Part shown: piece by piece, positions 30,979 through 43,076 of the stretch
How the letters are laid out: each line of letters opens with the position of its first letter
Numbering within the stretch: the first letter of the stretch is position 1
NCBI RefSeq assembly: GCF_000168975.1
Contig: NZ_AAUW01000010.1
Span: 124,001-188,000 of the forward strand
Direction of reading: 5' to 3'
DNA: 64,000 bases
DNA from: Roseibium aggregatum IAM 12614
GTDB taxonomy: Bacteria > Pseudomonadota > Alphaproteobacteria > Rhizobiales > Stappiaceae
Position numbers and translations under genes: made by a program
Notes under the pieces: generated by a model
Database searches by the model: none
Told to the model about the DNA's origin: nothing
What the model saw: the letters and a program-made list of their open reading frames with translations, nothing else

Positions 30979-31029
30979 CCCGCCCCAATCGGGGTCGTCC
31001 CCCGGTTGGCGTGGTAACACGTCAATGTT

Positions 31030-31232
31030 TATGCGGGAGAGGCCGGGTGAAAGGATCCTGGCGCCGAAGGAGCAACCGCCCCGGAAACTCTCAGGCAGAA
31101 GGACCGCATGAACTGCAACGCTCTGGAAAGCAGTGCTCCGCAACTGGGTTTGCGGACTGCTCACCGAAGGAGTAACCGGAAGGCACCGACGGTGCCGGTC
31201 GGGAAATCTCTCAGGTACTCGGACAGAGGGGG
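31030..31232 (+). ncRNA. Tandem glycine riboswitch
   Basis: Two consecutive glycine aptamers. The first begins at GCGGGAGAGGCCGGG and contains GCGCCGAAGGAGCAA, then GAAACTCTCAGGCAGAAGGACCGC. The second, after a short linker, contains CACCGAAGGAGTAACCGG, an extended P3 hairpin GGCACCGACGGTGCC, and GAAATCTCTCAGGTACTCGGACAGAGGG. The CCGAAGGAG and CTCTCAGG signatures occur twice. It sits 67 bases before gcvT and will activate glycine cleavage when glycine is abundant. No clear terminator separates it from gcvT, so control may be translational. Confidence 0.95.
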
Positions 31233-40283: not shown

Positions 40284-40312
40284 TTGACTCTTTTCCCGCT
40301 CTCGCGCATTTA
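40284..40312 (+). promoter_or_regulatory. Predicted promoter of the tyrS leader transcript
   Basis: TTGACT at 40284-40289 and, after 17 bases, a weak -10 CATTTA (or TTTAAA two bases later). The implied transcription start falls within a few bases of the leader ATG at 40320, which would make the leader mRNA leaderless. The stretch 40159-40283 shows nothing else. Confidence 0.45.
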
Positions 40313-40319
40313 AACTGGC

Positions 40320-40385
40320 ATGACCAAGACGAGCGCATCCTTCGTGTATTTTTATTACGTCACCGACATACCGGCGGCTGCGTAG
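40320..40385 (+). CDS. Leader peptide of tyrS with Tyr-Phe-Tyr-Tyr codons
   Basis: 21 codons ending in TAG: MTKTSASFVYFYYVTDIPA plus two Ala. Codons 10-13 are Tyr, Phe, Tyr, Tyr, so three of the 21 residues are Tyr within four positions. No Shine-Dalgarno lies upstream, consistent with leaderless translation as known for trpL in Sinorhizobium. The last codons contain CGGCGGCT (40372-40379), which can pair with the 5' arm of the downstream terminator. It is recognised as a leader by position, codon content and RNA architecture, not by homology. Confidence 0.7.
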   Translation: MTKTSASFVYFYYVTDIPAAA

Positions 40386-40438
40386 GATCTTGTTCACCCC
40401 ATAGACACCTCAAAAGCCGCCGCGTCAGGCGGCTTTTT
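40372..40438 (+). terminator. Attenuator of tyrS: intrinsic terminator with competing antiterminator
   Basis: The terminator is a perfect 10-bp stem AAAAGCCGCC (40412-40421) / GGCGGCTTTT (40428-40437), with a 6-base loop and a T-rich 3' end. Its 5' arm can instead pair with CGGCGGCT at 40372-40379 (8 bp with AGCCGCCG) inside the leader ORF. A ribosome reaching the stop at 40383 would cover this segment and favour termination. A ribosome stalled at the Tyr codons (40347-40358) would leave it free for antitermination. Confidence 0.75.
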
Positions 40439-40455: not shown

Positions 40456-40481
40456 GCTTCCTGGCGGGGGAACCAGGAAGC
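40456..40481 (+). promoter_or_regulatory. Hairpin sequestering the tyrS Shine-Dalgarno
   Basis: GCTTCCTGG (40456-40464) and CCAGGAAGC (40473-40481) form a perfect 9-bp stem with an 8-base loop. The 3' arm contains AGGAAG (40475-40480), which is 6 bases before the tyrS ATG and is the only good ribosome-binding site. Confidence 0.7.
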
Positions 40482-40486
40482 GAAAA

Positions 40487-41764
40487 ATGACCAGACATAT
40501 GATCGAAGCCGGTAAACCGGCGACAAAACTCAAATCGGAAGCACTTGCCGTGCTTCTGGAACGTGGCCTCGTGCACCAATGCACGGATATCGAGGCGCTC
40601 GACCAGACCCTGTCGCAAGGGCCGATCACAGCATACGCCGGCTTTGATGCCACGGCGGCAAGCCTTCATGTCGGCCACCTGATGCCGCTGATGACCATGC
40701 GCTGGCTGCAGAAGCTCGGCCATCGTCCCATCGTCGTGCTGGGAGGCGGCACCAGCCAGATCGGCGATCCGAGTTTCCGCAAGGATGCCCGGCCGATGCT
40801 GGAAGAACGCCAGATCGCCGCCAACATAGCGACCATTCGGCGATCCGTCGAACGGCTGGTCGACATGAACGGCGAAGACGGGGCTTTGCTGGTCGACAAT
40901 GCGGAATGGCTCAATGAATTCCGCTTCCTGGAATTCCTCCGCGACTATGGCTCCCAGTTCACCGTCAACCGCATGATGACCTTCGACAGCGTCAAGTCAC
41001 GCCTCGATGCACAGATGCCGCTGACGGTTCTGGAGTTCTGCTACATGATGCTGCAGGCCGTCGATTTCCTGGAACTGGCAAAGCGCTACGATTGTTCGCT
41101 TCAGGTCGGTGGGTCCGATCAGTGGGGCAACATCGTCAACGGTGTCGAGCTTGGCCGCCGCGACGGCCGCAAGCTGCACGGACTGACGGTTCCGCTGCTG
41201 ACGACCGCGAGCGGCGCCAAGATGGGCAAGACGGCCGCCGGTGCCGTGTGGTTGCATCCTGAACATCTGTCGCCCTTCGGCTTCTGGCAGTTCTGGCGCA
41301 ACACCGCCGACGCCGATGTCGCCAAATGCCTGCGGCTCTTCACCGAACTGCCGATGAGCGAGATCGAACGTCTGGCAGCGCTGGAAGGGGCGGAGCTCAA
41401 CGAAGCCAAGAAGATCCTGGCCACCCAGGTGACGGCTATCGTTCATGGACCCGAAGAAGCGCGTGGCGCCTTGCAGCAGGGCGATGCCCTGTTTTCCGGC
41501 GAAGGCGAGATCCTGGAACCGACCCACAGTCTGCCGCTGAAAACGCTGGCGGAAGGTCTGGGTCTTCTGGAACTCGTGGTCGCGGTCGGCTTCGCGTCCT
41601 CCAACGGCGAAGCCCGCCGGCTGGTGGAAGGAGGAGGCGTCCGCCTCAACAACCAGATCCTTGACGACCCGCGCCGCCGCATCGCCACAGGTGATCTTCA
41701 GGCCAATGACCGCCTGTCGATTTCCGTCGGCAAACGCCGCAAGGCCCTGATCGGCTTCGAATGA
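40487..41764 (+). CDS. tyrS: Tyrosyl-tRNA synthetase
   Basis: 425 residues, class I synthetase of the bacterial TyrRS type. The HIGH-type motif is HVGH at residues 61-64, after AYAGFDATAASL. The KMSKS-type loop is KMGKT near 245-249. LEFCYMMLQAVDFLEL and GGSDQWGNI are the tyrosine-binding blocks (Tyr, Gln, Asp). A C-terminal S4 RNA-binding domain follows (about 355-425, EARRLVEGGGVRLN). It is charged with regulation by the leader, attenuator and SD hairpin just upstream. A second in-frame ATG four codons in is possible but less well placed. Confidence 0.97.
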   Translation: MTRHMIEAGKPATKLKSEALAVLLERGLVHQCTDIEALDQTLSQGPITAYAGFDATAASLHVGHLMPLMTMRWLQKLGHRPIVVLGGGTSQIGDPSFRKDARPMLEERQIAANIATIRRSVERLVDMNGEDGALLVDNAEWLNEFRFLEFLRDYGSQFTVNRMMTFDSVKSRLDAQMPLTVLEFCYMMLQAVDFLELAKRYDCSLQVGGSDQWGNIVNGVELGRRDGRKLHGLTVPLLTTASGAKMGKTAAGAVWLHPEHLSPFGFWQFWRNTADADVAKCLRLFTELPMSEIERLAALEGAELNEAKKILATQVTAIVHGPEEARGALQQGDALFSGEGEILEPTHSLPLKTLAEGLGLLELVVAVGFASSNGEARRLVEGGGVRLNNQILDDPRRRIATGDLQANDRLSISVGKRRKALIGFE

Positions 41765-42331: not shown

Positions 42332-42489
42332 GTGAGAACTGCTTTGATGTCGATGTGTCTTCTCAGACAGACCATTCTCGCGTCGATTGGACAACTGCAA
42401 ATCTCTTTGCACTTGTTTGGTAACGTCCAGGTGAGCACCATTCAGCCTTCTCATCCCTCAGCCTCCCCATCATCCCTCTCCACTTCCTC

Positions 42490-43076
42490 CGTCATGCCAT
42501 GGCCCGACCATGGCATCCACGCCGTTCCCCATCCGCCAATTGAGGCTTCCGGTTGAGGCACGGTCACGGCATGGATTGCAGGGGCGGGCCCTGCAATGAC
42601 GGGGGAGTTTGAGGGGGCAGTAAGAGGCCGAGTTCTTTGGGGTATGCTGCCCTATGTGCGGACGCCCCGCTGCGCCCGGAAGACTGCCCGCAGCACGCTG
42701 TCCAAACGCCCAATTCTCCACTTCCTCCGTCATGCCATGGCCCGACCATGGCATCCATGCCGTTCCCATCCGCCAATTGAGGCTTCCGGTTGAGGCACGG
42801 TCACGGCATGGATTGCAAGGTCGAGCACTGCAATGACGGGGGAGTTTGAGGGGGCAGTAAGAGGCCGAGTTCTTTGGGGTGTGCTGCCCTATGTGCGGAC
42901 GCCCCGCTGCGCCCGGAAGACTGCCCGCAGCACGCTGTCCAAACGCCCGATTCTCCACTTCCTCCGTCATGCCATGGCCCGACCATGGCATCCATGCCGT
43001 TCCCCATCCGCCAATTGAGGCTTCCGGCTGAGGCACGGTCACGGAATGGATTGCAGGGTCGAGCCCTGCAATGACG
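42490..43076. repeat. Tandem array B: about 2.5 units of 237-238 bp
   Basis: Core starts at 42490, 42728 and 42965. The 112-bp core is bounded as in array A (CGTCATGCCATGGCCCG and CCCTGCAATGACGG), but its centre (CCGCCAATTGAGGCTTCCGG) and the linker of about 125 bp differ from array A. Linkers contain GTTCTTTGGGGT and CGGACGCCCCGCTGCGCCC and are nearly identical between units 1 and 2. The third unit is core only. Together with flanks, this fills the gene-free stretch 42332-43197. Confidence 0.92.

Follow-up and report, generated by a model that had tools for sequence, protein, structure and literature searches.

A second tyrosyl-tRNA synthetase gene in Roseibium

The stretch of DNA analysed here, 64 kb from Roseibium aggregatum IAM 12614 (hereafter the window), carries tyrS2, a gene for a tyrosyl-tRNA synthetase (TyrRS), preceded by a short ORF with clustered tyrosine codons, an intrinsic terminator and a further hairpin over the Shine–Dalgarno (SD) sequence of the gene (Table 1). 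An earlier note on this DNA had taken the gene behind the terminator to be tyrS; a match to TIGR00234 (355 bits, cut-off 114) bears this out, but the gene is a second, divergent copy and not the ordinary tyrS. Searches with the window TyrRS returned two tyrS genes in all 37 genomes of the genus, its own included, and one in each of 24 genomes from other families of the order. The ordinary copy in the same genome (L038) is 56–78% identical to the single-copy tyrS of the other bacteria compared, and the window TyrS2 is 47–56% identical to every ordinary tyrS of that same set. Consistent with this divergence, the tyrS2 copies of Stappiaceae formed a separate clade in the tree, with support of 100/100.

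Table 1 Features of the tyrS2 locus (window coordinates)
Feature	Position	Strand	Basis
-35-like element TTGACT	40284–40289	+	Spacing of TTGAC to leader ATG conserved
-10-like stretch CATTTAA (putative)	about 40307–40313	+	Placed by eye
Leader peptide ORF, MTKTSASFVYFYYVTDIPAAA and stop	40320–40385	+	Translation, conserved TTGAC spacing, motif counts
Candidate control codons Tyr-Phe-Tyr-Tyr (TAT TTT TAT TAC)	40347–40358	+	At least two Tyr codons in 65/65 leaders
Segment 2 (antiterminator 5' arm), CGGCGGCT	40372–40379	+	Pairs with segment 3 over 6–9 nt in 65/65 leaders
Intrinsic terminator, segments 3 and 4: 10-bp stem, 6-nt loop, T-rich tail	40412–40437	+	Scan
Segment 3 core, AGCCGCCG	40415–40422	+	Complementary to segment 2
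Second hairpin covering the tyrS SD: GCTTCCTGG, 8-nt loop, CCAGGAAGC	40456–40481	+	Helix counts
tyrS2, second tyrosyl-tRNA synthetase, 425 aa	40487–41764	+	TIGR00234, PF00579, PF01479; two tyrS per genome; separate clade

Pfam assigns class I and S4 domains to the window TyrS2, which also contains the motifs LHVGH and KMGKT; these we take to be its HIGH-like and KMSKS-like motifs. All 18 Stappiaceae TyrS2 proteins checked (P0002, the window copy, and 17 others) contain QAVDF where the 58 other TyrRS that match the pattern have A/G-Y-D, Val thus replacing Tyr; six further TyrRS did not match the pattern. QAVDF presumably adjoins the tyrosine-binding Asp, and the change suggests a possible shift in the selectivity of TyrS2.

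A plasmid origin of tyrS2 was considered and rejected, as none of the 31 plasmid records that matched covered 80% of the query. Three plasmid records were opened, and two Paracoccus plasmid tyrS genes were found to be divergent to an anmK gene. A 425-kb Pseudomonas aeruginosa plasmid (CP109682.1; L308) has an annotated tyrS at 1456–2694; by eye, the 275 nt at its start contain neither a terminator nor adjacent Tyr codons, and an upstream ATG is followed by Tyr-Gly-Tyr. Elsewhere in the window lie a glycine riboswitch (RF00504, 66 bits, 31024–31116) and, downstream of tyrS2, a minus-strand ORF (42470–43042) with a repeated stretch in its translation.

A leader ORF with conserved tyrosine codons

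The 21-codon ORF and its Tyr-Phe-Tyr-Tyr run, both described in the earlier note, are present as listed in Table 1. Among ATG-initiated ORFs of 10–40 codons on both strands of the window, no other was found with three Tyr within four successive codons, and a search of the R. aggregatum genome for the motif with up to three mismatches returned only the window copy.

Leaders were read for all intact tyrS2 genes found in Stappiaceae except those of G075 and G083 (64 of 66), and for one relic; the 72 loci, less seven duplicates, gave 65 distinct leaders. Three Tyr codons occur in 60 of these and two in the remaining five, amounting to 130 TAT and 60 TAC. Tyr codons are thus kept in all 64 intact loci read and in the relic, as expected of the codon run in a ribosome-mediated attenuator, even though their positions shift and TAT and TAC are exchanged. 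The run is rearranged among leaders (YFYY, FYYY, VYYY, VYYF, DFYY) and yet kept; nearly all Roseibium leaders have VYFYY or AYFYY. Tyr is not the sole universal residue, because Ala is also present in 65/65 leaders and Phe in 64/65; Trp occurs in none of the 65.

The start region is equally regular. With the ATG set by alignment, the distance from the end of the TTGAC hexamer to the leader ATG is 28–31 nt in 37/37 genomes of the genus, and in the scripted reading TTGAC lies 28–32 nt ahead of the ATG in all 65 distinct leaders, the script itself requiring a Tyr/Phe motif and an ATG 26–33 nt past TTGAC, on which 0/72 loci failed. An SD-like motif precedes the leader ATG in 0/37 genus genomes and the tyrS ATG in 35/37. 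A sigma-70 consensus scan returned no promoter and so did not pick out the TTGACT element. The TTGAC spacing and the absent SD-like motif fit a leaderless transcript, as in Sinorhizobium trpL, whose transcript is described as leaderless in the parts of PMC7298713 and PMC10117765 available to us. On these grounds the leader ORF is probably translated from a leaderless mRNA with its 5' end at or near the ATG. The fold of the 162-nt leader is more stable than that of shuffled sequences (z = -3.2).

Mutually exclusive pairings ahead of tyrS2

The complementarity of segment 2 to segment 3 over 8 nt and the 10-bp terminator with a T-rich tail, which the earlier note had also pointed out, were both recovered, the latter by a terminator scan and 49 nt from the tyrS ATG at 40487. 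An intrinsic terminator thus lies between the leader ORF and tyrS2, and near the end of the ORF a segment able to pair with the 5' arm of the terminator over 6–9 nt is found in 65/65 leaders. The 2:3 and 3:4 pairings are mutually exclusive. Seven central pairs of the terminator stem are identical across all 46 aligned leaders. The alignment proposed in the earlier note accordingly returned the conserved Tyr codons and the complementarity but not the compensatory changes: two-sided changes occur at 0/10 consensus terminator pairs, and covariation of segments 2–4 is uninformative because those bases hardly vary.

The spacing is such that stalling would expose segment 2 and completion would cover it. 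In the 64 intact loci, segment 2 begins 16–20 nt beyond the first nucleotide of the final Tyr codon. Relative to the end of segment 2, the end of the stop codon ranges from 5 nt upstream to 22 nt downstream. Four leaders (L087, L088, L095 and L159) stand at the far edge, their stop ending 19–22 nt past segment 2, which is the limit of ribosome cover at the stop.

We folded the RNA left free by a ribosome at either position. A ribosome placed at the last Tyr codon left RNA that formed the 2:3 helix in 64/64 leaders, and one placed at the stop left RNA that formed the terminator in 65/65; because these folds used a simple footprint and each omitted the competing segment, they indicate that the structures are possible and not which of them is preferred. 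In minimum free energy folds of free leaders, segment 2 paired with upstream sequence in 64/64. Such pairing was seen in 30/30 leaders against 79% of shuffles, with a mean energy z of -2.2; support for a 1:2 hairpin is weak, as shuffled upstream sequence permits the pairing 79% of the time.

Conservation of the element within Stappiaceae

Our sample of the family comprised 87 genomes in seven genera. Every one of the 45 genomes of Roseibium (Labrenzia; g1) has an intact second tyrS, as do 21 of the 22 from three sister genera (Pannonibacter, g28, 5/5; g29, 1/1; Pseudovibrio, g30, 15/16; g28 and g30 were named through matching contig coordinates of their loci), and the genomes of the other three genera each have one tyrS (20/20). 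All 64 intact-locus leaders contain at least two Tyr codons, TTGAC, a terminator-pairing segment and a terminator. In one genome of the Pseudovibrio group (G076; L159) a fragment is all that is left of tyrS2; the Tyr-codon leader and terminator are still recognisable, and the complementarity of 6 nt is no shorter than in eight intact loci.

Among the 37 genus leaders, mean column identity in the alignment is 87%, and the second half of the leader is near-invariant at the DNA level within Roseibium. By BLAST, the core matched in 666/666 pairs of these genomes and the upstream flank (300 nt lying 40–340 nt 5' of the leader ATG) in 69/666. Because the flank has no detectable match in the other 597 pairs, the element does not represent the end of a neighbouring gene common to these genomes.

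We then compared these loci with other tyrS genes using a detector for terminators and Tyr-run leaders. Both were found at all 37 genus tyrS2 loci. At 18 loci of Pannonibacter, HF-Dia03 and Pseudovibrio the detector, which relies on the T tail, recovered 18 leaders and 16 terminators, some Pannonibacter and Pseudovibrio loci having T-poorer tails. Five ordinary tyrS genes of the genus gave one terminator and no leader, and 38 other tyrS genes, mostly alphaproteobacterial, gave three terminators and no leader. A Tyr-run leader was therefore found before none of the 43 other tyrS examined, their upstream sequence being counted from the start of the match, which in some cases differs from the true start codon.

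The same architecture outside Stappiaceae

A covariance model built from 46 leaders was run on 397 genomes of the order. It found 13/13 sampled Stappiaceae with tyrS2 at E values of 2e-18 or below, many of these being in the training set, and matched 0/7 sampled Stappiaceae without tyrS2. Weaker matches followed from 8e-7 on, and 71 of the 397 genomes reached E 0.1, many of them probably by chance. Three of the 20 weak matches retrieved precede tyrS (in G402, G349 and G286). The leader peptide is MIKNAPIAANYYATLP in G402 and G349 and MITTAPIAARYYATFP in G286; each of these genomes has two tyrS, and five genomes of the genus of G402 have one.

Eight non-Stappiaceae genomes in the order sample had two tyrS matches: these three, three with a fragment or split second match (G287, G310 and G244), and G112 and G284. 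In a sample of the class, 12 genomes besides that of R. aggregatum had two or more tyrS matches, and five were followed. G672 has two full-length tyrS, one of them with a probably leaderless MTEMMHITAVYFARLP leader, a segment 2 and a terminator, the leader having only one Tyr and one Phe codon. The two full-length tyrS of G589, whose assembly is 74% complete, both lie at the ends of contigs; they look near-identical where they overlap, and no leader was seen; this genome was left out of the count below. G768, G574 and G532 contain tyrS fragments.

Four genomes outside the family (G402, G349, G286 and G672) thus have two distinct full-length tyrS genes, one of which has the same architecture as the window locus. 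They represent three lineages, as G402 and G349 belong to the same genus and are 98% identical in tyrS2. No leader was seen before the ordinary partner tyrS in G286 and G672. In a tree of 61 rows the attenuated tyrS fell on one side of a branch and all other rows on the other (support 89/85), and the same split was seen with a distant outgroup (82/75; 47 rows, bootstrap unsettled). This split makes a single origin of the accessory TyrRS together with its switch possible.

Similar leaders precede other genes. Seven of the 17 other retrieved matches are Phe/Trp/Tyr-rich leaders (for example MIHLTASFWYFYYSSLAAGGLRSI) ahead of DAHP synthase, a call made by Pfam scan for one protein and from sequence for the rest (for L187 from the N terminus only). 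This set (L170, L173, L175, L182, L183, L187 and L189, about 1001–1140 in match orientation, with terminators) comes from other families of the order. Eight loci (L172, L176, L178, L184, L188, L177, L179 and L180, 1001–1115 in match orientation) contain aromatic leader ORFs such as SYFWAYL, TYFWLYL and VSYWYPS with terminators, and in seven of them, L184 not being assigned, a GNAT acetyltransferase lies downstream (two proteins Pfam-scanned, the rest judged by sequence), which makes seven of the 17. The weak matches L181 and L186 look like chance. A class-wide GC-pattern scan matched 62 of 385 genomes, a reversed-pattern control also matching many; besides the window, G672 was the only tyrS case recognised in it.

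A proposed tyrosine attenuator and its alternatives

We consider it very likely that the element controls an accessory second TyrRS by ribosome-mediated transcription attenuation in response to the charging of tRNA-Tyr. A Tyr attenuator before tyrS was the reading put forward in the earlier note, and comparison strongly supports it through conserved Tyr codons, complementarity, geometry and terminator; we infer the response to tyrosine. Transcription would start at the leader ATG, and a ribosome would translate the leader while RNA polymerase advances. When Tyr-tRNA is scarce, the ribosome would stall at the Tyr codons and leave segment 2 free to pair with segment 3, in which case no terminator would form and tyrS2 would be transcribed. 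When Tyr-tRNA is plentiful, the ribosome would run on to the stop codon and mask segment 2, leaving segment 3 to pair with segment 4, and transcription would end ahead of tyrS2. In an untranslated leader, segment 2 could fold back on the leader start, which would also favour termination. Together with the start site, the stalling and the read-through, we infer a role for tyrS2 as a reserve enzyme.

Several other explanations were weighed against this attenuator. Intrinsic terminators are often intergenic, and the leader could be an ORF that arose by chance across the terminator of the preceding gene. The conservation of the element in 64/64 intact loci read, set against an upstream flank that rarely matches, rules this out, and the ORF is the only one of its kind found in the window; we give the idea practically no credence. 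A T-box, riboswitch or protein-binding leader controlling tyrS2 has a precedent in Bacillus tyrZ, which is under a T box according to a title cited in PMC9437257, but any such model leaves the conserved ORF and its Tyr codons without a role. The T-box covariance model had no match in the window at gathering score, where the only Rfam match at that score is the glycine riboswitch noted above, and we regard this kind of control as scarcely credible. Alternatively, the main product of the element might be a trans-acting molecule, either a terminated small RNA or the leader peptide, like rnTrpL and peTrpL in Sinorhizobium, and control of tyrS2 would be secondary. It resembles trpL (as described in the accessible parts of PMC7298713) in its probably leaderless leader and strong terminator, the second half of the leader is near-invariant in Roseibium, and G076 retains the element beside a mere tyrS2 fragment, with complementarity no shorter than in eight intact loci. 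The invariant stretch is, however, largely explained by segments 1 and 2, the element adjoins tyrS2 and went undetected ahead of the other tyrS genes examined, and the R. aggregatum genome has one copy, which together make a primary role in trans very improbable.

A closer variant of the attenuator would have it sense shortage of Phe, or of any aromatic amino acid, with the Tyr codons as passengers. Phe occurs in all but one of the leaders, those of Roseibium read F-V-Y-F-Y-Y, and codons for Phe, Trp and Tyr occur together in the related elements ahead of DAHP synthase; in Corynebacterium, moreover, aroR (Phe-Tyr-Phe) answers to Phe and reportedly not to Tyr, as far as the available parts of PMC11802643 go. 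Against this, the run lacks Phe (VYYY) in 11 of the 13 intact Pseudovibrio leaders read; Phe lies outside the run in these peptides, except in L095, which has none. Every one of the 65 leaders has at least two Tyr, none has Trp, and the gene under control charges Tyr. We therefore judge Phe or general aromatic sensing unlikely, and prefer sensing of Tyr-tRNA.

Beyond the window locus, our confidence is evenly divided on a wider proposal: that alphaproteobacteria possess a family of accessory TyrS2 enzymes with a patchy distribution across four or more families, recognisable by a leaderless Tyr-codon attenuator and, in most cases, an SD hairpin; these would serve as reserve enzymes in tyrosine starvation, and the switch would travel with them. 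The switch would then be part of a larger group of leaderless aromatic attenuators, with DAHP synthase and GNAT acetyltransferase genes among their targets.

Relation to known systems

The leader gene of Escherichia coli pheST is pheM. Unlike tyrS2, pheST is the only copy of its synthetase and its leader is SD-led. Attenuation of aminoacyl-tRNA synthetase genes is described for E. coli pheST in the parts of PMC11802643 available to us, a case that resembles Roseibium tyrS2 in being an attenuated synthetase gene and differs in its amino acid, Phe instead of Tyr. In the same excerpts, Corynebacterium glutamicum aroR–aroF has, like tyrS2, a leader with aromatic codons (Phe-Tyr-Phe), but the gene controlled encodes DAHP synthase and reportedly does not respond to Tyr.

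Attenuators have also been predicted for trpS/trpS2 and leuS in the accessible text of PMC1262725. Both trpS2 of Streptomyces avermitilis and leuS of Streptomyces are, like tyrS2, synthetase genes with codon-rich leaders, and trpS2 is by its name also a second copy; they differ in concerning Trp or Leu, in belonging to Actinobacteria and in being prediction only. The hisS paralogues of bacilli (PMC2965389, in part) are likewise duplicated synthetase genes under a predicted leader peptide, for His and in Firmicutes. In Sinorhizobium meliloti, trpL is a leaderless ORF under transcription attenuation in an alphaproteobacterium, as is probable for the element before tyrS2, but it has Trp codons and precedes a biosynthetic gene, trpE(G) (PMC7298713 and PMC10117765, in part). 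Bacillus subtilis tyrZ, like tyrS2, is a second, specialised TyrRS beside a housekeeping one, but is controlled by a MarR regulator and a T box (from a title cited in PMC9437257); in the available part of that paper its conditions of expression are stated to be unknown.

In the literature searched, which included few subscription journals and in part only excerpts, we found no report of tyrS under a Tyr-codon attenuator; related cases may appear in Vitreschak 2004 and Lopatovskaya 2010. The element would represent a known mechanism with a new amino-acid specificity, acting on an accessory synthetase. If the proposal is correct, it provides a tyrosine-specific case of a classic control mechanism, applied to a spare and not a housekeeping synthetase and outside the bacteria that use T boxes, and makes the reason for two TyrRS per cell testable in cultivable Roseibium and Pseudovibrio.

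A hairpin over the tyrS2 Shine–Dalgarno sequence

The attenuator model leaves unexplained the hairpin that covers the SD sequence of tyrS2, which may add translational control. In 49 of 59 loci the SD forms part of a continuous helix of 5 bp or more, the L185 row being counted as a miss. Because the MAFFT alignment put the arms out of register, the hairpin was scored for each sequence separately. The register CCT:AGG is present in 54 of 58 loci, and five positions show more than one type of Watson–Crick pair; position -4, for example, is G-C in 32 and C-G in 8, and position -2 is T-A in 13, C-G in 12 and unpaired in 29 of 54. Several pair types at a position indicate that pairing is kept through sequence change, with many imperfect members. 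Arms pairing over 5 bp or more came in 18 distinct combinations, which include nested versions of a single stem.
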